Shown piece by piece: positions 3,001 to 21,502 of a stretch of DNA of 22,725 bases (positions are counted from its first letter, which is position 1; each line of letters begins with the position of its first letter). Under the pieces are notes generated by a model. That model had not been told where the DNA came from. It searched no databases and was given only the letters and a program-made list of their open reading frames with translations. The DNA is from a virus. The translations under genes and the position numbers were made by a program. The DNA lies in IMG/VR virus record IMGVR_UViG_3300027856_000112, positions 1-22,725 of that record. One strand, given 5' to 3'.

Positions 3001-6000
3001 ATGAGCGCACAGGAAGTACTAGTACATGAGCTGGTTCATGCTGTTACTCAATATGCAGTAGATAAGTCTCCTTGGGTAAAGCGAGAGGCCATCCGTATAT
3101 TCAAGCAAGTTGAGAAGCACATTACTGTCAATGACTTCCTGCCTATGGACCAGAACGGTAACCCTATTGCTAGTCCAAGTAAGGAAGAACAGGCGACAGC
3201 AAAAGAGAGATATGAGTACATCTTTAAGAATAAGACTGTGAAGATTACAGAGAGTGTAGACCCTATCACTGGGTACATCCGTAATTCTCGTACCAATGAT
3301 TATATCCATGAGTTCATGGCACATGCCCTGTCTAACGAAGCATTCATCAAGCGTCTCGGCAATATCACTGTAGAAGCTACTAAGACTGATACTTCAGGAC
3401 TGAACTTCAGACAGAAGATTCTCTCTTGGTTCAATAGAATGATGGATACTCTGTCAGGCAAAATCTATGCCACTAATAACATTACAGCAGATAAAGCTCT
3501 ACATAATCTTGCAGGCAGAATGGCCCACATCAGTAAGACCAGTGAGGCTAAGGTAAATGTCTACAGTGAGCAAGCAGCGAAAATAAACGATAGCACTGTG
3601 AATGCACTGAACAAGTTTATTATGGCTCCTCTTACCAAATGGAGAAGCAAAGAGTCTGTACGGAATACTACTTCTGTCCTAAAGAAGGCAGCATCTACTA
3701 CCATAGGTGCAGCTACTCACGTTGCTTCTGGTGCTCTGGGAGATGTCGTATCTCAGGTAGCAGGACGGTTACGTAGCTCTGAGCATAATGTAATCACCAA
3801 TCTGGTTACAGAGATGAAGGGTATCACTGACAAAGGATTCATCTATCACAGACTGCTGGCTTACTCGAAGAAGGTTATTGACCAGCAGCGTAAGCATGTA
3901 TCCACAGGGGTATCACAGCAAATCAATGCAGCCTTCCTGAGTGAGCCTGATGAGGATTCTCGTAAGGCTATGAGCTATGGTCTACTGAAGACTAACCTTC
4001 AAGCTATCTGGGATAAGTATACCCCTGCTGAGATTGAGGAGTTCTTCACTAACGACACCAAGCTGAATGCTGCTATTGGTTCTGTACATGGCAGAATGAG
4101 AATAGAACAGACTGGTCCTAATGCTGAACACTTTATCATTCAGGCTAGAGGTCTGGGTAAGTTCATGGCTGAGGGTGTTATCACTGAGGCTAATCAGGCT
4201 TGGAATGCATATAGCATTGCTAATAAGTTTGCTGCTAATAAAGCAGGTCTTCCTAGTGATGTAGCCAAAGCAGAAGCTGACATAGATATACTCATTACCC
4301 TGAACGCTATCAAGAATACTCCTATGCAGTATAGGACTAAGACAGCAGAGGTAATGAATGCAGAGGCACAGCTACAGAAGGAAGGGGAGAAGAGAGACAA
4401 TGGGATACAGGTTACTATAGACCTGCACAGAGGCTTCATGGAGGAGTCCTTGGTTAATCTGTTTGGTGGTGTTAAGACTCAGATGATATCTGGATTTACC
4501 ACTGAGACCTATGACCCTAACGTAACCATTCAGGTAGCTCCTTTGGCTCAAGAAGGTGAGCTTAGAAAGCTTGGCTATACCAGACACTCAGTCCTGTCTA
4601 GAGAGGCTGTAGACGGTAACCCTGAGACTATGTACGTATTCGTATCTACTGTGGACTCTATGAGTACCTACAGCAAGGCTATCGTCTCTCTGACTAATGA
4701 GAAGGTCAAAGGTACTACCTTACTGGACTTGGCTAGAATCACTGGTAGCTTCAACCCTGCTCTGGATGCACAAAACAATATGGATAACATCCAAGCTAAG
4801 TACAATAAGAAAGTACTTGGGCAGCACAGTGGTAGAGGCTATGGTAAACAAACTGGTGAGTCTCTCATGGCTCCTATCTTTGCTGAGAATGGTGACATTA
4901 CTGGTTACAGATATGTAATGTCTGAGCACATGAAGCGTACCGTCCTGAAGAAGGATGAGAGGTTTGATGTAATACTTGGGAAGATGTGGGGGAGTGTTAC
5001 CGATAAGGTAAATTCGAAGGATGTAAATGAGCAGACTATTCATCTGTCGTATATGGATTATCTGGAGAATTATAATAGAGAACCAGAACAGTTCATTGAG
5101 ATTACTGAAAGTAATGATAATGAGCGGTATGATGAAATCTACGCTCTTATGCCTAAGCATATGCAGACAGCTATGCGTAAGCAGTACGGCTCTAATAAGA
5201 TGTTTGTCCGTAAGGAATATCTGGACTTAATCTTTGGGTATCGTAAGGCTTCACTGGCTAACTTCGAAATATTCGATAATGCTCTTATGGTTAAGAGAGC
5301 TATCCAAGCAGCAGAGGATATCTGGGGTGAGATAGTACAAGTAGCCAAGACCTATATCGTAATTAAGAATCCAGCTACACTGATAGGGAATATCACTAGT
5401 AACTTTATTCTCGGTTGGGTAAAGGGTATGCCTCTCAAGTATATGGTGCAGAAGCAGTCTGAGGCTCTCGTAGAGCTTCGTAGCTACCTTGAGACTCTGC
5501 GTGAGCGTGATAGCCTACAAAGAACACTTGAGACCAATACACGGCTCTCTGCGAAGGATAAGGATTCTTTGGAAGTACAGATTGCTAGACTGGATACTAG
5601 TATCTCTACTAGTGCTATCAAGCCACTTATTGATGAGGGAATCTTTCAGAATATTATTGAGGATATTGAACTTGAGGATGCTACATATGGTATGAGGGGG
5701 ATTGCTACAAATGCTGTGACTAGTGTAACTGATAGATTTGTACCAGAGAAATTGGTGGAAGGTTCTAAGCAATTGCTAATGACCAGAGATACTGCTCATT
5801 TTGAATTCATGCTTAAAGCTACTCAGTACAGTGACTTTGTAGCTCGATACTCTTTGTGGAAATATAATGCTGAAGTTAAGGGAATGAGCCATAAAGACAA
5901 CATTACTGATGTAGTAGAGACCTTTGTGAACTATGATGTCCCTACTGGTAAGTATCTCCAGTATGCTAATGATATGGGACTGTTCATCTTCACTAAGTTC

Positions 6001-6210
6001 TTATTTAGAATTCAGAAGGTTATCTACAAGACTCTGGCTGAGAAACCTGCTACTTCAATGGCAGTGTATATGACTCAGCAGTTGTTTGGAGATGTATCTG
6101 ATATTAATGATACACATATCTTCGGAGATGCTATAGCACATAGATTAGCTATAGACCATATCCTTGATAATGCTACTACTGTTGCGGGATTAGAGGCAAT
6201 CCCAGGATAA
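1..6210 (+). CDS. Giant virion-type protein with zinc metallopeptidase motif (3' part; start lies outside the window)
   Basis: The reading frame is open from base 1, so the N-terminus is missing; about 2,069 residues are visible and the gene stops with TAA at 6208-6210. A zincin signature, VHELVHAV, lies at bases 3022-3045 (window codons 1008-1015). About 95 codons later comes IHEFMAHALSN, whose Glu (bases 3310-3312) is a candidate third zinc ligand. This HExxH plus distant E-F-x-x-x-A-L-S-N pattern is known from large polyvalent phage proteins. Other visible parts are an AQK-rich low-complexity patch near bases 421-450, a Lys-rich stretch near 2640-2670 and a probable coiled coil around 5450-5600. 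It is the only + strand gene and ends at the shared terminator. A packaged, possibly ejected internal virion protein is the best guess, inferred from size and domain style. A virion RNA polymerase was considered, but I could not identify its motifs. Confidence 0.75.
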   Translation, partial: ADSLGAAIYPHLGLKAREGSDGTFEARLKHSLGELAITVLLEQGYVEQNEVSAKEFGELDSEKITKNVKSKTNFIRVKTIEVNNEEEIRTDIQDLIKTSQESDSIINTLFGLEKRTTAPSLKPITKVNENVRNSPQKVSAKTQAAQKAAQKEPWNYREDLDKVLTLLDRETLLIMEGYETDVQGLHITDRKAATAKNNALVNGFKDALTFRDIADEADFYFKYFTTKSGRSHIDSSIFNPQGNKVHRLFARAKAWKQEYTSENVFAYKAAIIAGLGIKFENFTDENISELFRGVLASPAIQDAVHHLAISEDSLSKEGKAAVSHAVEKGGEGLHSLDVLLSLAEATELVGGSYVLKDSFTSDIYLEVDGKVNGPTIAVAQVPVDISAMDALEAGGYSFDSRTDLSEFDSPDTYEQLAANWISYLKGIHGALPTVEKFALDNLRVVIGPFLSDGVVNDLARKMSKPALTTTNFGQSIPNAVEQFSDAAIKKMYHQLRDAKGDKDAFDSKKRQIESVMDGAGGMVLDVTQENVLEFEFSKAEEKAIRATVESTYGEALKMALYDKMKEFVLVRDEVNTAIRGMFQVFDALLQHELGKKRAEKKQPLSAQEEKDIVESLSDFFPRFRGPASDNVEEGILVLKEQRVRQHTPEYRVQQNYTARVKGTTSKAPHIGSITSHASKVEYQEGGVGGPVMSVHHTDSVQVGAVMEEFGGMSAFDAYLFNPTEAVDGGKVFNSTMFETNKEYDFVSAVTEAVALLGQKVKANKEYAGVVRKGISSMKITLNKDPLVKANEQTQVARKWLYTPGRIRSLMNYGINGSAHITPPVETTEKDSTEALQAGVDFVVLTEYGKDFTVFPTGAILDNKTGKQLSDKDPAIQKRIDRLKKKAKKEGILGSSEDYIDTESFAPEHEETLMAENISEVFNDMGNYGTKTESESHKRHLSEIVGTIIKDGIGALDSLQLKLREKGDNTIGIITSSEKNGKTAGTIYIEASVVHTNNNAKMSAQEVLVHELVHAVTQYAVDKSPWVKREAIRIFKQVEKHITVNDFLPMDQNGNPIASPSKEEQATAKERYEYIFKNKTVKITESVDPITGYIRNSRTNDYIHEFMAHALSNEAFIKRLGNITVEATKTDTSGLNFRQKILSWFNRMMDTLSGKIYATNNITADKALHNLAGRMAHISKTSEAKVNVYSEQAAKINDSTVNALNKFIMAPLTKWRSKESVRNTTSVLKKAASTTIGAATHVASGALGDVVSQVAGRLRSSEHNVITNLVTEMKGITDKGFIYHRLLAYSKKVIDQQRKHVSTGVSQQINAAFLSEPDEDSRKAMSYGLLKTNLQAIWDKYTPAEIEEFFTNDTKLNAAIGSVHGRMRIEQTGPNAEHFIIQARGLGKFMAEGVITEANQAWNAYSIANKFAANKAGLPSDVAKAEADIDILITLNAIKNTPMQYRTKTAEVMNAEAQLQKEGEKRDNGIQVTIDLHRGFMEESLVNLFGGVKTQMISGFTTETYDPNVTIQVAPLAQEGELRKLGYTRHSVLSREAVDGNPETMYVFVSTVDSMSTYSKAIVSLTNEKVKGTTLLDLARITGSFNPALDAQNNMDNIQAKYNKKVLGQHSGRGYGKQTGESLMAPIFAENGDITGYRYVMSEHMKRTVLKKDERFDVILGKMWGSVTDKVNSKDVNEQTIHLSYMDYLENYNREPEQFIEITESNDNERYDEIYALMPKHMQTAMRKQYGSNKMFVRKEYLDLIFGYRKASLANFEIFDNALMVKRAIQAAEDIWGEIVQVAKTYIVIKNPATLIGNITSNFILGWVKGMPLKYMVQKQSEALVELRSYLETLRERDSLQRTLETNTRLSAKDKDSLEVQIARLDTSISTSAIKPLIDEGIFQNIIEDIELEDATYGMRGIATNAVTSVTDRFVPEKLVEGSKQLLMTRDTAHFEFMLKATQYSDFVARYSLWKYNAEVKGMSHKDNITDVVETFVNYDVPTGKYLQYANDMGLFIFTKFLFRIQKVIYKTLAEKPATSMAVYMTQQLFGDVSDINDTHIFGDAIAHRLAIDHILDNATTVAGLEAIPG

Positions 6211-6289: not shown

Positions 6290-6365
6290 TGGAGCCAATG
6301 GTAGGAGTCGAACCCACGACATCCTCCTTACAAGGGAGGCGTTCTACCTGCTGAACTACATTGGC
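6290..6365 (-). tRNA. tRNA-Thr (UGU anticodon)
   Basis: A full 76-base cloverleaf is readable on the - strand. The acceptor is GCCAATG/CATTGGC with discriminator T and an encoded CCA. The anticodon arm is CCTCC-CTTGTAA-GGAGG, giving anticodon TGT, and the T-arm carries GTTCGAC. It would read ACA, and perhaps other Thr codons if U34 is modified. It is the last gene of the - strand operon, 6 bases before the terminator stem. The encoded CCA is typical of tRNAs from gammaproteobacteria and their phages. Confidence 0.95.
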
Positions 6366-6369
6366 AATA

Positions 6370-6445
6370 TGGCTCCCTAGGTTGGGTTCGAACCAACGAC
6401 AACCTGATTAACAGTCAGGTGCTCTACCAACTGAGCTACTAGGAA
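6370..6445 (-). tRNA. tRNA-Asn (GUU anticodon)
   Basis: A 76-base cloverleaf on the - strand. The acceptor is TTCCTAG/CTAGGGA with one T-G pair, discriminator G and an encoded CCA. The anticodon arm CCTGA-CTGTTAA-TCAGG gives anticodon GTT. The D-arm (AGCTCAGTTGGTAGAGC) and T-arm (GTTCGAAC) are canonical. It is 4 bases from tRNA-Thr and 5 bases from tRNA-Pro, so all three are probably processed from one precursor. Confidence 0.96.
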
Positions 6446-6450
6446 TAATA

Positions 6451-6527
6451 TGGTCTGCGCGGCAGGATTCGAACCTGCGACATCTCAGTTCCAAACCGAG
6501 AACTCTACCAAGCTGAGCTACGCACAG
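6451..6527 (-). tRNA. tRNA-Pro (UGG anticodon)
   Basis: A 77-base cloverleaf on the - strand. The acceptor is CTGTGCG/CGCGCAG with one T-G pair, discriminator A and an encoded CCA. The anticodon arm CTCGG-TTTGGAA-CTGAG gives anticodon TGG. The D-arm and T-arm (GGTTCGAATCC) are canonical. It is the first of three tRNAs downstream of rtcB in the direction of transcription. Confidence 0.96.
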
Positions 6528-6547
6528 AGATTTAACTGGGAATAATG

Positions 6548-6566
6548 CGGGGGAATGAATCCCCCG
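6548..6566 (-). other. GC-rich hairpin between rtcB and the tRNA cluster
   Basis: On the - strand CGGGGGA and TCCCCCG form a perfect 7-bp stem with a 5-base loop, 5 bases after the rtcB stop. No T-run follows (the next bases are CATTATTCCC), so it is a weak candidate for intrinsic termination. It may instead protect the rtcB 3' end after tRNA processing or attenuate readthrough. Confidence 0.6.
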
Positions 6567-6571
6567 TCAAC

Positions 6572-7690
6572 TTATCCTTTAATATTAATAATAGGTTTAA
6601 CATGAGTAATGATATCTACTAGGTCTGTTTGTAGTTCCATTACCTCGTAAATATTCTTATACGCATCTGGAGCTTCATCAAGTGTACCTTCACCAACTTG
6701 AGCTGTTACACCGCTCATAGTAGTTGTGAAGTCTTCCACACTTAATTCACGCTTTGCTTGCTTACGTCCCATTACCCGTCCTGCACCATGAGAGCTAGAC
6801 CACAGAGAATCAGGATTCCCTTGACCTTTAACGATAAAGGAGCCATCTCTCATATTTCCTGGGATTACTCCCCACATGCCATCCTCTGCATGGGTAGCAC
6901 CCTTGCGGTGAATCCACATACCATGAGCATATTCAGCATGGTTATGGTTACGATTGATAAGGTTACGCCAATCAGCATCACCTTCACAACAGTCACCAAG
7001 GATATTCTCAACTACTGACATCATATGTCTACGATTCTCTAGGGCGTATTCAAGTGCCCAATTCAAATCATTGATGTATGAGAGACCCTTATCACTATCA
7101 GCCCCAAAGGAATAATGCCCTTCTTTGGCTTTACCTTCGGGATGAGCAAGCTTGATATACTCAGTAGCAATACCATGACCTACACCACGAGAACCAGAAT
7201 GAATAATAATCCATACACGGCCTGTACTCTCTACACCAATCTCGATAAAGTGATTACCCCCACCAAGAGTACCCAAACCTCTGAAGCCCTTACGAGCATC
7301 AAATGCAATACGTCCTAGAGGAGAAAGGTTACTGGGGTCCATATGAGTTTCTATAGGTTTATTATGAACATTAAATCCTACAGGAATACGCTGATAAATC
7401 TCAGCAAAGATTTCAGTAGCCTTCTTTCTGACATCGTTTACAGAAAATGAGGTAGGTAATGCACACATACCACATCCAATGTCATAGCCTACCCAAGCGG
7501 GAACAACTACGTTATCTGTAGCTACTACTGCACCAATAGGTAGAGTGTACCCTGTATGTGCATCAGGCATTAGCGCACCTTGGATAGAATAGTCCTGTTC
7601 CATCGCACTGTTAAATTGCTCTAAGGCGGTCTCCTCTAGGTGTTCTGCATAGATTTTAATTTTCTTCATGTTCTTGTATTCTATATTCAA
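6572..7690 (-). CDS. rtcB: RtcB-type RNA-splicing ligase (3'-phosphate to 5'-OH)
   Basis: RtcB joins RNA 3'-phosphate or 2',3'-cyclic-phosphate ends to 5'-OH ends, using GTP and Mn2+, through a histidine-guanylate intermediate. The family motifs are in order (372-residue numbering): DIGCGM with metal ligands D70 and C73, GGGNHF (H147), HSGSRG (H164), NHNHAE, HRKGAT (H261), and SSSHGAGR with the nucleophile H301. All key residues appear intact, and the length is a little below the ~400 of bacterial RtcB. The TTG start at 7690 has AGGA 8 bases upstream. An ATG at 7669 (365 residues) is an alternative but has no clear SD. It overlaps the upstream small gene and is followed by three tRNA genes, which suggests tRNA repair during infection. 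Confidence 0.95.
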   Translation of the reverse strand: MNIEYKNMKKIKIYAEHLEETALEQFNSAMEQDYSIQGALMPDAHTGYTLPIGAVVATDNVVVPAWVGYDIGCGMCALPTSFSVNDVRKKATEIFAEIYQRIPVGFNVHNKPIETHMDPSNLSPLGRIAFDARKGFRGLGTLGGGNHFIEIGVESTGRVWIIIHSGSRGVGHGIATEYIKLAHPEGKAKEGHYSFGADSDKGLSYINDLNWALEYALENRRHMMSVVENILGDCCEGDADWRNLINRNHNHAEYAHGMWIHRKGATHAEDGMWGVIPGNMRDGSFIVKGQGNPDSLWSSSHGAGRVMGRKQAKRELSVEDFTTTMSGVTAQVGEGTLDEAPDAYKNIYEVMELQTDLVDIITHVKPIINIKG

Positions 7691-7940
7691 AATAGTTGTC
7701 CTTCCTTTCCAATATTTTCTTGGTTCTCTTAGCCTCGTCTATATTTCTATAAGTATTAAAGGTAAGCCATGTATCCTTATAGGCGGTTATAGAACGTAAT
7801 GCCCTATCGGCCCACCTATATTCCATTACTATTGGTTTACTCTTTTTACTTTTACTAGGGGGAGTAGGTAAGTCTAATACAGGCTCTTGGCGTTTATCTT
7901 TAGCTTTAGAGTTCCTAACTTTTGCTTCTGGATTGCTCAT
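7656..7940 (-). CDS. Small basic protein of unknown function
   Basis: A 94-residue protein that I do not recognise. The N-terminal 40 residues are rich in Lys, Ser and Pro and probably disordered. The rest has mixed charge with many aromatic residues (YRWADRALRS, YKDTWLTFNTYRN) and may form a small alpha/beta fold. The ATG at 7940 follows AGGTG with good spacing and overlaps the pentapeptide gene's TGA as ATGA, so the two are translationally coupled. Its 3' end overlaps the start of rtcB. No Cys-Cys motif or membrane segment is visible. Confidence 0.75.
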   Translation of the reverse strand: MSNPEAKVRNSKAKDKRQEPVLDLPTPPSKSKKSKPIVMEYRWADRALRSITAYKDTWLTFNTYRNIDEAKRTKKILERKDNYFEYRIQEHEEN

Positions 7941-8467
7941 TGTTTCACCTGCGCCGTATAGAAGTCCCTAATTAGATTGAAGTACTCAGGTTCCCATGTC
8001 TCATACCTCTGAGCCAGTCTATTAACTGCTTCAGGAGTACTATCGAGCCACTTGTAAGCTCTCCTACCAGCACAGCCTACCTGAACCCAGTCATCGACTA
8101 TTGTGACGATATAGGGGGGTAGCTGCATGGTTCGAATAATCTTACCATCGCCTATGAGATTCTCTATCTTGGCATCCAGAAGGATAACTCTACTGAGATT
8201 GGCTCTTGAAAAGTTAGATGATGTAAGGTTAGCCTTAGTAAAGTCTACAGCATTGAGATTACATTCAGTAAATGAAGTCCGTTGTAGTTTACTACTACGA
8301 AAAGAAGCACCATCTAAATTGCTCCCATCGAATCGGGCACAACATAGATTGAACCTAGAGAAGTCTAGTCCAGATAAATCCTCATCTGTTAAGTCAGCAC
8401 CTACCATATTAGGTTTGGACATACGTGGAGTATTTACCCATTGTAGATACTTCTCTAGGTCAGTCAT
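7937..8467 (-). CDS. Pentapeptide-repeat protein with C-terminal phage domain
   Basis: Residues about 20-105 consist of A(D/N)LxX-type repeats (GADLT, DLSGLDFSRF, GSNLDGASFR, KANLTSSNFS, RANLSRVILL), which should form a right-handed quadrilateral beta-helix. After the helix a separate domain carries VQVGCAGRRAYKWLDS, resembling the 'IGCxxxxxxxW' tail seen in other phage pentapeptide proteins. Some pentapeptide proteins mimic DNA and inhibit gyrase, but nothing here proves that role; the helix is short and the tail suggests another use. It is 176 residues long, overlaps the upstream membrane-protein gene by 8 bases and is ATGA-coupled to the downstream gene. Confidence 0.88.
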   Translation of the reverse strand: MTDLEKYLQWVNTPRMSKPNMVGADLTDEDLSGLDFSRFNLCCARFDGSNLDGASFRSSKLQRTSFTECNLNAVDFTKANLTSSNFSRANLSRVILLDAKIENLIGDGKIIRTMQLPPYIVTIVDDWVQVGCAGRRAYKWLDSTPEAVNRLAQRYETWEPEYFNLIRDFYTAQVKQ

Positions 8468-10373: not shown

Positions 10374-11099
10374 TTATGAATAGTATTCGTTCAGTCTCTG
10401 AGAGACCAAATTCAAATCGTTGTTAATGTATTTCTCTGACCGCTTCCAGAGTCCCATATGGGAACGCATCTTCTCACCTAGACTCTTCTTATCAATCCGA
10501 GTCTGGAATACATACTTAACACCATCTTCTTCTTCTTCATCAGAGATAGTGAGTAAGTCGTTATCCTTCATCCACTTCTTAGCTTCTTTAGTGGAGATAC
10601 GTTTAGCACCTAGAATAGTAGTGAAGTCAGCCTCTGCACCTGTGTACCCTACAGCACCTTTAATAGGGATTTTACTCTCAAGTACCATATCTGTTTCATT
10701 CATGATGTCCTGTGTGTGAGCCAATACAAAATAAGTCTTTGTCCCTGTTTTAACTTCATGCAGTAAAGACCTGTAATACTTAGCGTAATCTTGCCAAGCT
10801 TGGCGGGAATCCACAGCAGTAAGCACCTTCTGTTGCTCATACATATTCATAAGGTATGTAAGAGTATCTACCACACAAGTGTGCGCTGTATCATGTACCT
10901 CAAACTCCTGTACTGCTGCAATAGCATCTTCAGGATCTTCTAGACGTACCTCCAAGAACTTGCTTCTAAAAGGCAAATCCTTCAAATCAGAATTAAGATA
11001 CACGATATTCTTTGGGTCATTAAGCCAAGCTAGGGAGGTACTCTTCCCTGAACTTGGTTTGCCTACTATCAGCACTACATGGTTATTACCATCACTCAT
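10374..11099 (-). CDS. Sak4-like RecA-fold ATPase
   Basis: 241 residues. Walker A is GKPSSGKST (13-21). The likely Walker B is HTCVVDTLTYL with D78, and there is a later sensor-like strand (KTYFVLAHTQD). This compact RecA core without large extra domains is typical of the phage Sak4 group, which promotes single-strand annealing recombination together with a phage SSB. The SSB gene is next downstream, supporting that assignment. Its ATG overlaps the end of the primase-helicase gene by 8 bases. A generic phage AAA-type ATPase is the fallback call. Confidence 0.85.
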   Translation of the reverse strand: MSDGNNHVVLIVGKPSSGKSTSLAWLNDPKNIVYLNSDLKDLPFRSKFLEVRLEDPEDAIAAVQEFEVHDTAHTCVVDTLTYLMNMYEQQKVLTAVDSRQAWQDYAKYYRSLLHEVKTGTKTYFVLAHTQDIMNETDMVLESKIPIKGAVGYTGAEADFTTILGAKRISTKEAKKWMKDNDLLTISDEEEEDGVKYVFQTRIDKKSLGEKMRSHMGLWKRSEKYINNDLNLVSQRLNEYYS

Positions 11100-13242
11100 C
11101 CATATCTCTCCGGCTAATTGCTTTCAATACTGTGGTCATAATTGTGTGCATAATCTCCTCTTCTTTCATTGGTGAAGTAATCTTATCATTAAGCTGTATA
11201 ACAGCATTTCTGATATCATCGTAGTCCTTACCACTATCCACCAATGCTAATGCATATCGGATAATACTGTTGGACCTATTGCCTCTTGTAGCTTTGAGAA
11301 TGAACCACCGCTCTAGGTTATTGATAGCATCTGTAGACAGAATCTTATCTCTAGTCTCCCCTTCTTTTCTGGTTTGGGGGATGAACAACATAGCATCAAG
11401 TAACTCACCTTCCTGATAGTGAAAACTACCGGGGTGTGCCATCCACTTGCGAGCAATATCTTTAGCTTGTACATCCACATTGAAAGGCAGCCACGCATAG
11501 ATATTCTCCATGAACTTAGAGAATTCTACAGTAGGTAACTTAACAGTATGGCTCAAAGGAAGAATAATCCTATACCTATTCTTACTATCAGTATGTCTCT
11601 TGGTTGTAGCAAACAGTGCTGTATAGTCCTCTAACAGCATCTGAGCTGTTTCCATCTGCACAGAGTCATCCACGTCCAGAACAACCATGTTAAAGCCCTG
11701 TATGACGTTAGAGGAGCTTCTGTAATCATCTACGAAATGGTGATTACAATAATGGTATCCCGGTTCAGTAAGAAGCTCATGCATACCATCGAAGGGAATA
11801 GTGAACTTCTCATATCCTGTAGTGATGTCTGTACTGTACGAGATAGTGAGATTGTCTAGGTCAGTGTCCTCTAATGACTCCCCAGAGAAGAACTCAATAC
11901 CGTCACTGGAGCTTCTCTTAATAATGATATTGTTCTTATAGCCCCAAGCACTAGCCTGATGCATTAAATCACTACGTTGAGATGCAGTACCTTTATAGAA
12001 AGGCAAGTCCTCTATGAGGTCCACTTCAGTTACCTCTTTCTTGACGCCCGCAATGTACTTAGCCAACAGAGTGTAGTTACGGTCTCTGTTAAGAATACCT
12101 CCAAAGGAATCCCCTGTCTCTTCTGCCAACTTAATAGCATTGAACAGGAGTTCCTCTGTAATCTCGTCACTCTCAGATATGAAGGCATAGGCACCTGCAA
12201 GTTTGAGAGCTTTGAAGTATCTATGACTCAGCTCTGCTTTCTGGATAGTAGCAAAGTCTCCTAACTCATCTGCACGATGGTCACAGTAAAGCCTATATTC
12301 AATAAGCTTAAGTGTGGTAGATTTGGAGATAGTGAGTACCTGACCAAATTTACTTTCGTCAGCAAGATTACCAATGTCTACAGCCAATTGCTCTAGATAG
12401 TCAGAGGATGTAGTATCCGTCATCATATCGTAGATTTGCTCAGGAGTGAGTATGGTATCCTTCTCAATACGTGGGATGTAGCCAAAGAAGCATCTACGAG
12501 CATACCCAGTATCCAACATGGATATGAGTTCTTCTTGGGTCTTACCACCATCTAGTACCTTATTAGGGGTACCAAACAACAACATATTAGTAGGAGTTCT
12601 ACCAGCTACTTCTTCACTACGGACATTCTCTTTGGTATTCTTAGTAAGCTTCTGTTTAACATTGCCAATGTCATACAGTTCTAGAAAGGTATTGAGTACC
12701 TCAATATTACTTACCAGATTACTGCCAATCTCATCTAGCTCTAACGATACTGCACCTGCCCCTGACATCAGGATAAGCTGCCTCATCTGTTTCACGGCAG
12801 GAGATGTACCACTATCAAAGGAGAATGCTAAGTGACCTAGACTATTAAACTCTTTTGTTGTTTTCTCTAGAGTCTCTTCGTAGTCTTCCCCATACTTGTT
12901 AGCCCTAGAAGCAGCTATTTTGGCTATACAAGATTCACTAAGAATAGGGAAAGTCTCTTCCATAAACTTATGTTTGAAGTTACTAATAACTTCCTCTTCC
13001 AGAATATTGGTAGAGAAGCCTTTACCAAAACCACTTGGAGCTAGATTAATAGCATAGAGGTTTACTGGGATAATGCCTCTGTCATGGGTTTTGATATTGG
13101 TATGCATGATACTCGCTACTTTAGCGAAGTAGTAAGCTACCAGTACTCGGAAAAAGATAGGATTTGCTATTTGAGTCTTCTGCATTAATACATTAACAAG
13201 CTTTTCACTTGGCACAAAATGCTTGACGTTCTCTAAATCCAT
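11092..13242 (-). CDS. Helicase-primase fusion: N-terminal DUF3987 ATPase, C-terminal archaeo-eukaryotic primase
   Basis: 716 residues. The N-terminal half is a DUF3987-type P-loop ATPase with Walker A APSGFGKGFS (68-77) and Walker B SLELDEIG (about 166-173). The second half has the three archaeo-eukaryotic primase motifs: VVLDVDD (D523, D525), TKRH (547-550) followed by the strand RYRIILPL, and NVD (D590). Residues about 654-710 (GNRSNSIIRYALAL onward) resemble a PriCT C-terminal module. It should unwind DNA and synthesise primers at the phage fork. The order ATPase-then-primase is the reverse of the usual primase-then-helicase fusion. The SD AAAGGA is good. It precedes the Sak4 gene with an 8-base overlap. 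Confidence 0.88.
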   Translation of the reverse strand: MDLENVKHFVPSEKLVNVLMQKTQIANPIFFRVLVAYYFAKVASIMHTNIKTHDRGIIPVNLYAINLAPSGFGKGFSTNILEEEVISNFKHKFMEETFPILSESCIAKIAASRANKYGEDYEETLEKTTKEFNSLGHLAFSFDSGTSPAVKQMRQLILMSGAGAVSLELDEIGSNLVSNIEVLNTFLELYDIGNVKQKLTKNTKENVRSEEVAGRTPTNMLLFGTPNKVLDGGKTQEELISMLDTGYARRCFFGYIPRIEKDTILTPEQIYDMMTDTTSSDYLEQLAVDIGNLADESKFGQVLTISKSTTLKLIEYRLYCDHRADELGDFATIQKAELSHRYFKALKLAGAYAFISESDEITEELLFNAIKLAEETGDSFGGILNRDRNYTLLAKYIAGVKKEVTEVDLIEDLPFYKGTASQRSDLMHQASAWGYKNNIIIKRSSSDGIEFFSGESLEDTDLDNLTISYSTDITTGYEKFTIPFDGMHELLTEPGYHYCNHHFVDDYRSSSNVIQGFNMVVLDVDDSVQMETAQMLLEDYTALFATTKRHTDSKNRYRIILPLSHTVKLPTVEFSKFMENIYAWLPFNVDVQAKDIARKWMAHPGSFHYQEGELLDAMLFIPQTRKEGETRDKILSTDAINNLERWFILKATRGNRSNSIIRYALALVDSGKDYDDIRNAVIQLNDKITSPMKEEEIMHTIMTTVLKAISRRDMDE

Positions 13243-13566: not shown

Positions 13567-14544
13567 TCATAGTATTACTAATCCTTTTTGGATAAGTGCT
13601 TTAGCTTGGTCACAGACCTCTACAACATTGCAGTATTCACAGCGTTTAACTTGTCCCGGTACAGTAATAATAATACCCTTATTACCATCCTCCATAAGTC
13701 TTTGGTTAGCCTCATGAGAATCATCAAAGTTCTTAGTACTGCGGGTAAGCTTTGCTGGATTGCTGTAATACTTATACAGTGTAGGTTTCTGCCACAACTC
13801 TTCATACGTACATTCAGGCATCTCTGACTGTTCTGCTTGTAGATAGTCATCGACTTCATTAAGCCTGCTTCCAATCCACTTCTCTGTCTCATCAAAGGAC
13901 ATAAGAGGCAGTTTCTTCTGTAGTACCTTATGTGGAGGGTAGTCTTTCTTTCTAGAGGCCTCGGCCTTACTATAATCAGTGAAGATATAGTTGATAGCCA
14001 TTACATCACTGGTTACTTTATCCGGATTTAGCCATCTGTTGATGCTACCTTGGCGGATATAATCTGTATCATGTCCCCCAAGGATATAGCCCCATACACT
14101 TGTACTTTTATGGTCCTCCATGACACCATTTGCGATGACATCATATTTACCCGAGACTACCCATCCGGCAATTTCCTTCTTAACTCTCTGCTCAACAAAG
14201 AAGTTATGGAGATCTTCGTCTACAGTATCTGGATTAACCCGAGTTTTCTCAGCAATTGCCTTAGGATAGCCAAGAGACTCCAGTATAGCAGGTACTTTGT
14301 CAGATTTCCATGCTGATTCAATAGCATCATGAATAGCTGTACCCATACGACTAGGTACCAAATCCATAATATCCGTAGCTTTGCCTGCATCAGGATACTG
14401 TTGCTGAAGAATTATAGACCGTATTGGTTTAATCAGTGCAGTTGCACTAATAGTCTTAGGAGTATTGTCAAGGTCATATGAGTCAAATCCCAGCCATAAT
14501 GCTACGCTTAATGGTATGTTCTGTTTATTCGTGTATTTCTTCAT
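13567..14544 (-). CDS. Cas4/RecB-like PD-(D/E)XK nuclease with Cys cluster
   Basis: About 325 residues. GTAIHDAIE (H72) is the early motif of RecB-like nucleases, SGKYDVI supplies catalytic D135 and VMEDHKST supplies the E-x-K pair (E143, K146). Late Cys residues (PEC near 244, then CEYCNVVEVC near 301-310) give four cysteines placed like the iron-sulfur or zinc cluster of Cas4/AddB-type nucleases. RSTKNFDDSHEA is another family block. It probably acts as an exonuclease in recombination or end processing beside the polymerase. It overlaps the polymerase C-terminal gene by 20 bases. Confidence 0.87.
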   Translation of the reverse strand: MKKYTNKQNIPLSVALWLGFDSYDLDNTPKTISATALIKPIRSIILQQQYPDAGKATDIMDLVPSRMGTAIHDAIESAWKSDKVPAILESLGYPKAIAEKTRVNPDTVDEDLHNFFVEQRVKKEIAGWVVSGKYDVIANGVMEDHKSTSVWGYILGGHDTDYIRQGSINRWLNPDKVTSDVMAINYIFTDYSKAEASRKKDYPPHKVLQKKLPLMSFDETEKWIGSRLNEVDDYLQAEQSEMPECTYEELWQKPTLYKYYSNPAKLTRSTKNFDDSHEANQRLMEDGNKGIIITVPGQVKRCEYCNVVEVCDQAKALIQKGLVIL

Positions 14545-15634
14545 AAAATAAAGCCTCTATAGCCTCTCCAGAGGCATTATTAGGTAAAGTAGTAGAGCAG
14601 CTCCAGTTTGGGTAGAAGATGTCTGTAGCCCCTCCTAGACGTACTGTAGGATGCTGTAATTCAGGTAAGTCTTGCCACTGCATACATTCCACTAGGTTTT
14701 TATTGAACCAAGTCACTACTTCTATATCTGGCCTAACCAGAAAGTACTGAGCATCATGGATATGGATATTTGGTTTAATGTCGTAACGATAAGGAGATGC
14801 TAATATTCTCTTCAGCATTTCTATACCTGCTCTGTTATTGAGCATACAGTAACTCTGCCCTTTCATGTTACCCGCTGTACGTGCCTCTGCTTCAGCCTCG
14901 TAAGGCGTCTTAGAGGTACCTAGCATGACCTTGGATAGCATAGGGGTACGCAGCCTTAAACCGAAGGCTCCAGTGATGTAACCGTCCTTACAGGCTTGAT
15001 GAAGCTCACCTTGAATATACTCATCTGATTCAACATAGAGAGTATGGTAATTAGCCTCAACGTCCTGAGCTTTCTCTTTGGTCATACCTAGATTCTTAAC
15101 CAGAGTATGCCAAGTCCCGGAGTAGGTCAGTGCAAATGTAGGAGTTTTACTATCCTGACGTATTTGAGGGTACTTAGTCTTTATAGAGTTAATAGATGCT
15201 ACTGTATCTACTATATCTGGCAACTGGTCTCTAAAGTAAGAGTATGCTCGTAGACAGTGACCATCGTATCCGTCAGTGTACACTTTGAGCTTATTCTTAT
15301 CCTTAGTAGTCAATGCAGATATCATATCCTCAAGGCTATTAAAGTCTGCACCACAGAATAACCAATCCGCTGTGGATATAAAGCATTCTTTGATTAACTT
15401 AGCATGTACTGAGCCAGAAGGAATACTAGTTAGGTTAGGCTTACTACTAGAGAGCCTACCTGTCTTGGTTCCTCCTAGGTTAAACCCACCATGGAGATAA
15501 TATACTCCATCATCTTTGAGCACACTGTACTCTCTGAAGGCGGGTATGAATGTAGCTAAGAGGATATCTACCTCGGATAGCTCTACTAAAGCTTGGAGGA
15601 ATTTTACTGCCTCTATAGCCCCAGCTTTATCCAT
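14525..15634 (-). CDS. Family A DNA polymerase, C-terminal half (palm/fingers)
   Basis: 369 residues with the polymerase active site: TGRLSSSKPNL (58-68), motif A GADFNSLED (D97, E102), motif B RQDSKTPTFALTYS (R159, K163, F167) and motif C HIHDAQ (H293, D294). It begins just inside the thumb (KFLQALVELSEVDILLATFI), exactly where the exonuclease half stops, so together they make one complete enzyme. The ATG shares one base with the preceding TAA (TAATG). An in-frame TGA lies three codons upstream, so no longer start is possible. There is no clear SD, which suggests translation by coupling. Motif C has A-Q after H-D instead of the usual E. Confidence 0.93.
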   Translation of the reverse strand: MDKAGAIEAVKFLQALVELSEVDILLATFIPAFREYSVLKDDGVYYLHGGFNLGGTKTGRLSSSKPNLTSIPSGSVHAKLIKECFISTADWLFCGADFNSLEDMISALTTKDKNKLKVYTDGYDGHCLRAYSYFRDQLPDIVDTVASINSIKTKYPQIRQDSKTPTFALTYSGTWHTLVKNLGMTKEKAQDVEANYHTLYVESDEYIQGELHQACKDGYITGAFGLRLRTPMLSKVMLGTSKTPYEAEAEARTAGNMKGQSYCMLNNRAGIEMLKRILASPYRYDIKPNIHIHDAQYFLVRPDIEVVTWFNKNLVECMQWQDLPELQHPTVRLGGATDIFYPNWSCSTTLPNNASGEAIEALFYEEIHE

Positions 15635-16206
15635 TAAATATCACAGGTATTAAGTTTAGCTTGGAGGCTGTACAATTCTGAAGAAGCCTGAGAATGCTCT
15701 AGAGTCTGTTGCAAATATTCTCGTGCAGGCTTGTATAATTTCTGGATGTTAGTAAGTTCTTGTTTTAGCTCTTTCATAGAACTACGGGACAGGTTACCGT
15801 AACCTCCAGCAACTCTAAGGGTTACACTCTCATCTTTCGTGTCTAGTTTAATAGTAATCTCAATACCCTCACGAGAGATTTTTACAGACTCACCTTTGGC
15901 AGCACTGAACATACCATCTTGGTCATCGGGAACAGGATGGTCAGCCAGTTTCTCTTGTGCTTCCATCATTTCGTTGATAATAAGTATATGAGTACCAAGG
16001 AAATCCTCCAGCAGCTCTACAGCATACTCAATTTCTTTAGCAGAAGGAGTATTTCGAGAGAACACAATACCCCTTACTGAAAATAGCGGCTTACCACATT
16101 CGCCAACTACACGGAGACTTTTATTATCGCTAATAGCTACATGGTAATTGTTAAGGCTGAAGTTATCTAGTACATCTTGACATTCTTTACGTAAAATAAG
16201 ACTCAT
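15634..16206 (-). CDS. Unknown 190-residue protein encoded between the two polymerase halves
   Basis: I do not recognise it. The N-terminal ~90 residues look alpha/beta; a beta-rich middle (VKISREGIEITIKLDTKDES) follows, and a long C-terminal helical part with coiled-coil character (about 140-180). No HNH, GIY-YIG or LAGLIDADG homing-endonuclease motif is visible, and no intein splice residues. It is coupled on both sides: ATGA with the exonuclease half and TAATG with the palm half. Its own SD (AGAGGAATTAAAATG) is strong. Conserved-looking coupling suggests it may be a polymerase accessory or bridge subunit (inference only). Confidence 0.8.
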   Translation of the reverse strand: MSLILRKECQDVLDNFSLNNYHVAISDNKSLRVVGECGKPLFSVRGIVFSRNTPSAKEIEYAVELLEDFLGTHILIINEMMEAQEKLADHPVPDDQDGMFSAAKGESVKISREGIEITIKLDTKDESVTLRVAGGYGNLSRSSMKELKQELTNIQKLYKPAREYLQQTLEHSQASSELYSLQAKLNTCDI

Positions 16207-17711
16207 TTTAATTCCTCTTCTGTTATGTTGTATTGGTATTTTAGGTTATCTATGTGTTTAATAAGAGTTTCCTTTCCCGTTGCAGGTTGCCTGGTTTTGG
16301 TGTAATCAATTACAGGTAGTCCCATTACTTCATGCAATAGGGTCTGTAACTGAGGCCCACTACCGGGATTGAATTTAGCCTCTTCTTCGAAGTGTGATAA
16401 TGGATGTATTTTCTTAACTAACTTCTTATTGGCAGTTTTCATTAATGTTCTCTGCCTAAGCCTCTCAAATTTCTTAATGAGAGAGAACTTATGGATTCTA
16501 TCTAATGCGGAGTTCTTAATGGCTGTGAGTAGGCCGTCTACTTCATTTACCCTATTCATGTCTAAAGGTATGCCCACTAGCTCCATGATGAGGATTAAAG
16601 GCACACTCGGTAGAAATATTGACTCATATGGCTCACGTTGATTATCAGCAAGCATAATAGGGTAATATTTGTTGAATACCCAGAAAGTGCCCAAGCAATC
16701 CTTAAGGTTATAGGGGAGTAAGTCCTCGATAGGTATTTTTGTAATGTCATTAATGTCTTCCTCGGCATACCTTCCTAGGTACTCATGAGCCAGTGCTTTA
16801 AGTCCATAGGTCTGAGTAGCAGTAGAGTTTTTGGCTAGATACGCAATAAGTTTTGTATCGTGGATTCTCTTAGTGAGAATCTCTACTCCTCTAACTGTAC
16901 CGGGATAGTCTAACAGGTTATCCATGTATAGCTCGTATACGAGGACCTTGATATCATAGTTACCATTTTGGTAAATAATCGTACCTTTGTAGGTCTCGAA
17001 GAATTCCCGTAGGATATCTTTTATCTCTTCGTATATTGCTGAGTTACCATACTTACATGGGAAGGAGATACCTTCACTGTCACTCCAAGCGAATCCTATA
17101 GTACCTATAAAGGCTTCATAGAACTTCAAGCTGAATGCTTCAATATCACAAGACAGCGCGGAGTGCTGCTGTAATTTAGCTACTGCTTTACGTATAGCCT
17201 CTAGAGTCTTAGGATACTCAGAGTACTTAATTACATTCTGACCTACGGCTGTATAGGTATCATTGACAGATTTAGCCAAGGTATCTAGAGATGTATTCAG
17301 CTTAGCAAGCAGCGTATCATCATAGAATAGTGCCTGATAGTTCACAGAGACTACCATGTTGGTATCATCATGCACAGAGGGTAATACATACCCATATGCA
17401 CTAGGCACCTTCACTACTTTGGTTAATAGCTTAAAGTAGGGAGAATCTGCTACCAATACAGTCTTTGTATTTCTTGCTTCAAATGCCTTGGTTAGATTCT
17501 CAATGTGAGGGGCAGCAAACTTAACAGGAGTCTTTCCCTTCTCATTATAAGTCAGCGAGTACACAACAATATTTTCAGTGATACCTCTAGCTCTGAGAGG
17601 GTCAATGTAATACTGCTGTAGCTCTTTTACTTTAAATGCTGATTCTTTAATGAGTACTGCTATGGGAAAGTCACTACTGTCTTCATCACCGTAAAATACA
17701 GTGTGCTTCAT
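16203..17711 (-). CDS. Family A DNA polymerase, N-terminal half (3'-5' exonuclease plus start of thumb)
   Basis: 502 residues. An N-terminal phage-specific domain (about 1-180; YGDEDSSDFPIAVLIK, VLVADSPYFKLLT) is followed by a proofreading exonuclease with Exo I SCDIEAF (D189, E191), Exo II IYQNGNYD (N251, D253), a helper motif RIHDTKLIAYL and Exo III YNLKD (Y334, D338). The C-terminus reaches FNPGSGPQLQTLLHEVMG and TRQPATGKETLIKHI, the region just before the polymerase thumb, then ends in TGA. The catalytic polymerase half is a separate gene downstream. All exonuclease residues look intact. The start has GAGGAATTAATATG 10 bases after the preceding stop. Confidence 0.93.
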   Translation of the reverse strand: MKHTVFYGDEDSSDFPIAVLIKESAFKVKELQQYYIDPLRARGITENIVVYSLTYNEKGKTPVKFAAPHIENLTKAFEARNTKTVLVADSPYFKLLTKVVKVPSAYGYVLPSVHDDTNMVVSVNYQALFYDDTLLAKLNTSLDTLAKSVNDTYTAVGQNVIKYSEYPKTLEAIRKAVAKLQQHSALSCDIEAFSLKFYEAFIGTIGFAWSDSEGISFPCKYGNSAIYEEIKDILREFFETYKGTIIYQNGNYDIKVLVYELYMDNLLDYPGTVRGVEILTKRIHDTKLIAYLAKNSTATQTYGLKALAHEYLGRYAEEDINDITKIPIEDLLPYNLKDCLGTFWVFNKYYPIMLADNQREPYESIFLPSVPLILIMELVGIPLDMNRVNEVDGLLTAIKNSALDRIHKFSLIKKFERLRQRTLMKTANKKLVKKIHPLSHFEEEAKFNPGSGPQLQTLLHEVMGLPVIDYTKTRQPATGKETLIKHIDNLKYQYNITEEELK

Positions 17712-19747: not shown

Positions 19748-19960
19748 TCAGCTCTCTCTTGGTATTACTGTATTTACTAATGCCCCGTTCCATTTAGATA
19801 CAATGGTGGTTCCTACATACACGGCAAACCACGGTACACCTGACATTTGGCCGTTTTCCATTACGACCTTAATAGCTGTACATCCGTGTTCTCCTACTCT
19901 AAAGATATTACCTCCAGCGTAGATTGCAACAACATACTCCCCTTGTTTAAATTCACTCAT
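19748..19960 (-). CDS. Unknown 70-residue beta-rich protein
   Basis: Starts at ATG 19960, which shares one base with the TAA of the TSCPD gene (TAATG); a longer frame from 19987 would run inside that gene and is not needed. The sequence is strand-rich (GEYVVAIYAGG, FRVGEHGCTAIKVV, WFAVYVGTTIV) and suggests a small beta barrel, perhaps SH3-like. It has a single Cys. Function not recognised. Confidence 0.72.
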   Translation of the reverse strand: MSEFKQGEYVVAIYAGGNIFRVGEHGCTAIKVVMENGQMSGVPWFAVYVGTTIVSKWNGALVNTVIPRES

Positions 19961-20607
19961 TATCCACATTCTCCAAGGTGACCACATTCAGGATTAGTAC
20001 ATTTGGTACACCCTCCCTCAATAATCAGAGTCATCTCTGAGCACTCAGGGCACTGTTTACCTGTAGCTTTTGGCTTAGTACTGGCCTCTTCTTCAATAGG
20101 CTCTGGAGTGTCCTCTACAGCCTCATAGAGGTCTTTCTTGGTAGGGGTGGCACCATTGATATGTTCGTCAATTACCCAACCTATATGAGCCACTACAGAG
20201 GGATAATTCCTTCCCTTCATAAAGTATGAGCCAGAGCCGTCATGTACCTGCTTCATCTCCTTAATAAGGAACTGGATAGACTCTCCTCTACGGAAAGCAC
20301 TACTCATCATTCGAGTGATAGCATCCATCCATTGCTTATGTTCTGTATGTTTAGTATTGAGGAAGATTTCGAAAGGAGTATCAGCATAATCATTGATGGT
20401 GATATAGATGGTACCGTAACCAGCAATAGGAGGTTTAATCTTATATGTGAACCCAGGGAGCTTATACTCCCTTTTTTTCTTAGGGATATCTTCGTTCTCT
20501 TTGGCACATTCGCTATTAATATAGTGAGTACACCCTGCTGCTTCTTCTGGCTTATCTTCATCAAGAACTTTCCAACCAACAATCTTATTTTTAATTTCTA
20601 TAGCCAC
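19960..20607 (-). CDS. Stand-alone TSCPD-domain protein with C-terminal zinc ribbon (B12-dependent RNR C-terminal-like)
   Basis: 215 residues, GTG start at 20607 after AGGGGAA. Residues about 54-150 match the TSCPD domain found at the end of B12-dependent ribonucleotide reductases: GYGTIYITINDYADTPFEIF, then AITRMMSSAFRRGES and IQFLIKEMK. An acidic linker leads to a zinc ribbon, CPEC (186-189) and CTKCTNPEC (200-208), with one more Cys at 214. No reductase catalytic domain (glycyl or thiyl radical motifs) is in this protein or elsewhere in the window. It may help a phage or host reductase, or be a renamed domain with another job. Many phages carry such proteins annotated as reductase parts. 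Confidence 0.8.
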   Translation of the reverse strand: MAIEIKNKIVGWKVLDEDKPEEAAGCTHYINSECAKENEDIPKKKREYKLPGFTYKIKPPIAGYGTIYITINDYADTPFEIFLNTKHTEHKQWMDAITRMMSSAFRRGESIQFLIKEMKQVHDGSGSYFMKGRNYPSVVAHIGWVIDEHINGATPTKKDLYEAVEDTPEPIEEEASTKPKATGKQCPECSEMTLIIEGGCTKCTNPECGHLGECG

Positions 20608-20889: not shown

Positions 20890-20969
20890 GTTAATAACTC
20901 TATTATTGCGTAATTATCTACGTACTCTTGGATAGAGCCATAAAGTGCACATTGAAACGTACCCTTCAC
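20886..20969 (-). CDS. 27-residue miniature paralog, coupled on both sides
   Basis: A GTG at 20969 overlaps the ThyX-like gene's TGA as GTGA, and the frame ends in TGA at 20886 overlapping the next ATG as ATGA. The product (VKGTFQCALYGSIQEY, then VDNYAIIELLT) aligns with the tail of the downstream protein, sharing QC, GS, Q, Y, D, A and IELL. No SD precedes the GTG, and a TAG lies upstream in frame within the ThyX-like gene. It is either a tiny real gene or the 3' remnant of a decayed duplicate that still couples translation. Confidence 0.5.
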   Translation of the reverse strand: MKGTFQCALYGSIQEYVDNYAIIELLT

Positions 20970-21502
20970 GTCTTCAGCGGGTAATCTGGGTATGCCCTAA
21001 GTACCTTCTCTAGTCCTACATGACATTCGGTGTATTCTCCACAAATCCCGTTTCTATAGACGCAAGCAGGAACTAAATAGGGATGTAGCTTTGGTTCAAC
21101 TTTCTTAATCTCATTACATATCTTAGTCCATGCACCTACAGTCTCTTTATGACTCTTATAGCAGAGACGAGACTTAGAGATATTAATTAATTCCTGTGCA
21201 TTGGTCTCAATAGCGTGGTTAACCAAGGTCTCCCTGCCCTCATCTGATACGTCAGTAGGTCTCAGGTCATCTCTCATGGTCATACAGGCGTGTTCAGCGA
21301 ACTTACCATGCCTAACTAGGTGAGTGGAGATAAAGAGCTTGATACCCTCTAGTTTGATGAAATAGCGGTACATACGTAATGGGGAGTGTTCGCACTTAGC
21401 CCAGTAAGCAATAGATGCTTTCACATCCTTACCATGAGTGGTAGTAGCAGCAAATTCATTAGGTACTTCAGGGAGGTTATTCTTCTTGACTGTAATTTTC
21501 AT
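20966..21502 (-). CDS. Divergent ThyX-like protein (FAD-dependent thymidylate synthase fold)
   Basis: 178 residues. LFISTHLVRHGKFAEHACMT (about 56-75), MRDDLRP (76-82), VNHAIETNAQELINISKSRL (94-113) and a terminal VPACVYRNGICGEYTEC block match a ThyX-like phage family. The hallmark ThyX signature RHRxxSxNxxSxRY is only partly kept: R64-H65 and R77 remain, but the signature Ser is not where expected. ThyX makes dTMP using FAD and methylenetetrahydrofolate. This version may have altered chemistry (another pyrimidine substrate) or be non-catalytic. Three late cysteines (147, 154, 160) are unusual. Confidence 0.72.
   Translation of the reverse strand: MKITVKKNNLPEVPNEFAATTTHGKDVKASIAYWAKCEHSPLRMYRYFIKLEGIKLFISTHLVRHGKFAEHACMTMRDDLRPTDVSDEGRETLVNHAIETNAQELINISKSRLCYKSHKETVGAWTKICNEIKKVEPKLHPYLVPACVYRNGICGEYTECHVGLEKVLRAYPDYPLKT

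Follow-up and report, generated by a model that had tools for sequence, protein, structure and literature searches.

How does a phage obtain a working replicative DNA polymerase when the enzyme is encoded by two separate genes, and what is the role of the unrelated gene lodged between them? The question is raised by a 22.7 kb fragment of an uncultured N4-like phage (Schitoviridae-type), referred to below as the window, which is the whole stretch of DNA that was analysed. A preliminary description had recognised in it a family A DNA polymerase (PolA) divided over two genes with a further gene in between, and we recover all three open reading frames (ORFs) with exactly the same boundaries. The middle protein had been proposed to be a stable third subunit that bridges the two halves. 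Here, we describe the composition of the locus, its recurrence in other phages and the explanations that can be given for it.

A complete polymerase in two genes

The locus consists of the following three genes:

16203..17711, minus strand: exo half, 502 aa; 3'-5' exonuclease and first part of the thumb (helices H, H1 and H2 by alignment); PF01612 (E=1.3e-12), DNA_pol_A positions 11-68, PHROG 17 DNA polymerase (E=5.7e-62)
15634..16206, minus strand: middle gene P0002, 190 aa; orphan family common to L202, L203 and L209
14525..15634, minus strand: pol half, 369 aa; thumb helix I, palm and fingers with motifs A, B and C; PF00476 positions 74-360 (E=6.3e-29), PHROG 17 (E=1.6e-69), invariant columns

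On the minus strand, the exo half is followed by the middle gene and the pol half, each in a different frame. The PHROG 17 profile is covered from position 514 to 922 by the exo half and from 929 to 1245 by the pol half, while the Pfam DNA_pol_A profile is broken between positions 68 and 74. Placed end to end and aligned to fused relatives, the two halves cover the whole length of the fused enzyme, as the preliminary description had held, and carry about 17 extra residues at the junction. The exo half ends in a C-terminal tail of about 10 residues (...YNITEEELK). The full set of catalytic motifs, likewise claimed earlier, is in place: CDIE at 188, NYDIKV at 251 and YNLKDC at 334 in the exo half, and GADF at 95, RQDSKTPTFALTY at 159 and HIHDA at 291 in the pol half. 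All of them sit in invariant columns of the family, which identifies the enzyme as an N4-type family A polymerase. The usual, though not strictly required, form of such an enzyme is a single polypeptide; here the coding sequence is interrupted by stop codons and divided over two ORFs whose frames differ.

The cut falls inside the thumb. In alignments to the Taq and Klenow structures, it lies in a variable thumb loop between helices H2 and I. The earlier view that the exo half stops before the thumb has to be corrected, since DNA_pol_A positions 11-68 are already part of the exo half.

Genomic setting

The window carries both a giant virion RNA polymerase (positions 40-6210, phrog_2206, E reported as 0) and N4-type replication genes, namely a primase (phrog_2135), an SSB (phrog_743) and an exonuclease (phrog_2139), the combination that marks an N4-like phage. 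The named polymerases nearest to that of the window are N4-like as well, at about 60% identity. Two of the replication genes place the phage among other phages with a split polymerase:

13567..14544, minus strand: N4-type exonuclease phrog_2139, with a 20-nt overlap with the pol half
11092..13242, minus strand: N4-type primase phrog_2135

Fused N4-type polymerases (N4 gp39 and those of other Schitoviridae; L004, L265, phCDa) share 59-62% identity with the window over the pol half and have the same motifs and the same neighbours (primase, exonuclease, Sak4-like and SSB). In contrast to the window, they form one chain, without the approximately 17 junction residues and without a middle gene.

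Recurrence of the split at the same site

Profiles built on the pol half located 14 further distinct polymerases that are split at the site seen in the window. Together with L207 and the window itself, this gives 16 distinct same-site splits on about 20 contigs; the IMG/VR polymerases further comprise 113 distinct fused enzymes and 8 that are split elsewhere. Because 15 further distinct polymerases break identically in independent contigs, a sequencing or assembly error, which had been named as a possible source of the arrangement, is excluded. Fused polymerases in related genomes had also been named as a potential objection; they do occur in most relatives, which shows the split to be derived, not unreal. 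A second PolA is absent from all 16 split-phage records, contigs of 54-73 kb included, in a search with Pfam PF00476 in which a short N-terminal piece fell below threshold in two records. In the closer split pairs, dN/dS is 0.04-0.16 for both halves, so both are in use and under strong purifying selection. The split is thus heritable in the window phage, and the same is true of some fifteen further distinct lineages of uncultured phages.

Two genes may still yield one chain, if an intron, a split intein, a frameshift or a bypass joins the halves, and phage DNA polymerase genes are well known for introns and inteins (PMC10580990). Rfam gives no intron match for the window or for 12 split loci, and an intein would need more than the roughly 17 residues added at the junction. 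Lineages differ in how the frames of the two halves relate, with +1 in L213 and L228 and +2 in L247, and each half has its own start, usually with a Shine-Dalgarno sequence or a stop-start overlap. We consider a joined product highly improbable.

Translational coupling of the three genes

According to the preliminary description, the middle gene uses a third frame and is coupled to its neighbours through ATGA and TAATG, and both overlaps are indeed present:

16204..16226, minus strand: Shine-Dalgarno-like GAGGA within the codons of the exo tail, followed by the middle-gene start on the exo stop (ATGA); duplex -6.0 kcal/mol
15630..15638, minus strand: TAATG stop-start overlap from the middle gene to the pol half, without Shine-Dalgarno; duplex +0.6 kcal/mol, 92nd percentile

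Among the sites of the exo ORF, the anti-Shine-Dalgarno duplex of the window's GAGGA belongs to the best 2.7%. In nearly all split loci, the last exo codons contain a Shine-Dalgarno-like GAGGA that is suitably spaced from the next start (-5.7 to -12.3 kcal/mol), with L213 as the exception (-1.9 kcal/mol). The pol half lacks a Shine-Dalgarno sequence in all four phages with P0002-type genes (-0.8 to +0.6 kcal/mol), and in the window's family it overlaps the stop of the middle gene by 1 or 8 nt. At the C-terminus of the P0002 family, conservation is limited to C-D/N-V/I, residues that encode the overlapping pol ATG in L202, L203 and L209; the window differs in that the pol start is shifted to TAATG. 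Since the pol half has no Shine-Dalgarno sequence of its own and starts on the P0002 stop, its translation probably depends on that of P0002, to judge from the junction sequences, and ribosomes would pass from one to the other by termination-reinitiation.

The conserved exo tail (T/S-E-E-E/D-L) was also considered as a protein interface, but the Shine-Dalgarno sequence that it encodes accounts for its conservation at least in part. As the tail encodes this signal, a common tail alone is no proof of a single origin of the split.

The middle protein P0002

P0002 has no Pfam or PADLOC match, and its matches to PDB sequences are at chance level only. In PHROG, it gives only a 23-residue match to PHROG 10708 (E=0.001), a family missing from 46 related viral records, and in NCBIfam only a match with E=0.061. 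A tblastn search of P0002 and its halves against 50,697 phage records produced no credible match, and pattern scans for the P0002 family, run over both genome and viral contigs, recovered L202 and L203 only. The AlphaFold2 (AF2) model, built on a 4-sequence alignment, reaches a pLDDT of 78 and consists of a helix, three strands with helices, and then a second strand-plus-helix module. Searched against the PDB and viral libraries, it gives no E below 0.001, with residues 1-62 barely covered; the best fold matches are a Foldseek PDB hit with E=0.12 and a VIA hit with Z 5.7 to a designed protein.

The profile and structure searches suggested for the 190-aa protein gave neither a known family nor a convincing fold. 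Homologues occupy the junction in L202, L203 and L209, where the three-gene order is kept as the preliminary description had proposed to check. They are 27-39% identical, with the N-terminal 78 residues best conserved. Between L202 and L203, the P0002-type genes are 43% identical, whereas the polymerase halves are 73-79% identical.

The usual interpretation of a split PolA gene is an intron or a scar left by a homing endonuclease. In N4-type polymerases, HNH-type splits are common at other sites, and 8 distinct polymerases are split elsewhere, so P0002 or a predecessor might be an unrecognised or decayed homing endonuclease, or a similar selfish gene, that made the split. Lateral movement of a cassette would also give the pattern seen in the window, which has a P0002-type gene like those of L202, L203 and L209, yet a polymerase that groups apart from theirs. 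However, the early remark that no homing-endonuclease motif is visible holds for P0002 and extends to the other middle proteins, none of which matches HNH, GIY-YIG or LAGLIDADG families in Pfam or PHROG. The HNH-split polymerases of the N4-like phages Pollock, Pylas, VEc25 and nACB1 resemble the window in family, in having two ORFs and in having an overlapping gene between them, but they are cut near or after motif A and carry a recognisable HNH endonuclease in the gap. The break in the window lies in a variable loop and not in a conserved catalytic motif, as opposed to the conserved target expected of such an insertion. Furthermore, insert-free splits persist, and the overlaps of start and stop codons are finely tuned. 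A mobile element as the maker of the split is, on this evidence, improbable.

Alternative occupants of the junction

Two further families of middle genes are found at the same junction. The second is present in L211, L125 and L207, and the third in L279, L281 and L284-L286. Profile comparisons among the three families detected no relation. For the middle genes of family C, dN/dS is about 0.14, which indicates purifying selection and argues that they are not pure filler. L213, L228 and L247 lack any insert, their halves overlapping by 4-11 nt. The junction of L243, the sister of L247, contains a non-coding element of 191 bp whose terminal inverted repeats measure 23 bp. At the borders of the window's insert, direct and inverted repeats amount to weak, chance-level pairs only.

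The empty junctions, the three unrelated families and the element in L243 together indicate that the split does not need a middle gene and that the junction tolerates varied cargo. The proposal of a stable third subunit bridging the halves is not supported by these loci, in which the same split occurs without a middle gene (L213, L228, L247), with at least three mutually undetectable families, or with a non-coding element only (L243). The middle protein is probably a coupled passenger and not an essential bridge. What speaks against a passenger is that every split phage of the window's clade has some middle gene, and within this clade the middle protein could be useful.

Two of these junctions merit description in their own right. 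The L243 element (L243:5774-5964) is MITE-like, with repeats GTTAGGTTGCACATTGAAAACAT, and is absent from the close relative L247. In L281, the third-family gene is duplicated: two tandem middle genes (L281:5248-6017) look paralogous, the first being 17% identical to the L162 family member, and they have a C-terminal pattern in common.

Phylogenetic history

In the primase and exonuclease trees, the window falls among the split phages with a middle gene, and the phages without a middle gene form a separate clade. The polymerase tree is discordant. An AU test rejects all splits as one clade (p=0.0004), and it also rejects a clade that unites the window with the phages bearing P0002-type genes and the split phages closest to these (p=0.003). 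A single split event is thus unsupported by the polymerase tree, though the primase and exonuclease trees group the window with the middle-gene splits. The discordance may stem from internal recombination of the polymerase, from several origins of the split or from a long-branch model error. In L221 and L223, a fused polymerase is nested inside the window's split group in the primase and exonuclease trees; this fused gene may be a reversal (re-fusion) or a replacement of the split gene.

A proposed two-subunit polymerase and its junction

We postulate that the replicative family A PolA of this phage is a heritable two-subunit enzyme, with a thumb reassembled in trans and an exchangeable, coupled cistron at the junction, and we assign this explanation a probability of about 0.68. 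The break in the gene lies in the thumb loop that leads from helix H2 to helix I. The exo subunit, with the exonuclease and the initial helices of the thumb, and the pol subunit, with helix I, the palm and the fingers, would probably reassemble by packing the parts of the thumb together. The halves would associate and be active in this form. Coupling would keep the synthesis of the two in step, as the exo tail holds the Shine-Dalgarno sequence of the next cistron and later cistrons overlap or abut. The junction would be a permissive site that gains and loses unrelated small genes or a non-coding inverted-repeat element, and in the window it is occupied by P0002. Translation of P0002 probably hands ribosomes to the pol half, and this delivery would keep the P0002 frame open whatever its product does.

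Alternatively, P0002 may be a true accessory subunit that docks on the reassembled tip of the thumb and increases processivity or DNA affinity, other lineages using other small proteins to the same end. The cut lies at the thumb tip, where T7-type polymerases have the insertion for their processivity factor (PMC7699545, PMC10061031). T7 polymerase is known to have a small partner at the thumb tip, and such a partner is predicted in a C. perfringens PolA-SSB pair (PMC10061031, PMC7699545); by analogy with T7 gp5/thioredoxin and PolA-SSB pairs (CcPol-MP, PMC10061031) the thumb tip may be the common docking place in the window as well. The constant presence of some middle gene in the window's clade and the conservation of the 78-residue N-terminal part across four divergent phages are consistent with such a role, and the fixed coupling would yield equal amounts of the proteins. 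On the other hand, T7 gp5 is a single chain that has a genuine insertion for binding thioredoxin, and P0002 has no detectable relation to thioredoxin or SSB. It gives no recognisable fold match to a clamp, a thioredoxin or an SSB, which is a weak test; the lack of these folds in the Foldseek and VIA searches is not counted against them. Same-site splits without a middle gene exist, the three middle families are unrelated, and the divergence of the P0002-type genes far outpaces that of the polymerase halves. An accessory role for P0002 is conceivable but doubtful. We hold to be unlikely the more general form, a multi-chain family A polymerase with a thumb from two polypeptides, at whose tip a clade-specific, exchangeable small subunit docks as processivity factor, lineages having recruited unrelated proteins.

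The OM43 phages MEP401 and MEP402 (OP830906, OP830907), members of a mostly uncultured group, already provide an example of a PolA divided between two ORFs that enclose a small one (PMC10580990). As in the window, a family A polymerase is encoded there by two ORFs that flank a small orphan ORF, across a whole phage group. These phages differ from the window in belonging to the Zobellviridae, in being cut just before motif A in the palm and in having an unrelated middle ORF of 77 aa; a BLASTP comparison of the MEP401-type ORF14 with P0002 gave no significant match. The split at the thumb site is a variant of this arrangement.

With the two-subunit enzyme as the preferred explanation, a core replicative polymerase stays in two pieces over long divergence with no endonuclease and sometimes with no insert, which means that the phages tolerate the divided state or benefit from it. 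The loci provide a natural set of split sites for a two-chain PolA and a test bed for co-translational assembly. They would also offer a clear case in which a small orphan gene may persist as a translational bridge rather than for its product.

Other genes of the window

Several genes outside the polymerase locus were observed in the window. At 6290-7690, an RtcB-type RNA ligase (PF01139, E=2.9e-90) adjoins genes for tRNA-Thr, tRNA-Asn and tRNA-Pro, and the group is possibly a phage tRNA-repair unit. A 215-aa protein (19960-20607) has matches confined to the C-terminal end of profiles of the ribonucleotide reductase (RNR) large subunit, namely positions 790-969 of 975 in phrog_84, and phrog_23565 as well. 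It is perhaps a stand-alone RNR tail piece and, as such, another split gene. At 20966-21502, a 178-aa protein matches ThyX weakly at its C-terminal end (PF02511, below the cut-off) and has an altered signature motif (RHGKFAEHACMTMR). Finally, the window encodes a pentapeptide-repeat protein (7937-8467, PF00805); proteins of this kind can mimic DNA and act on gyrase.
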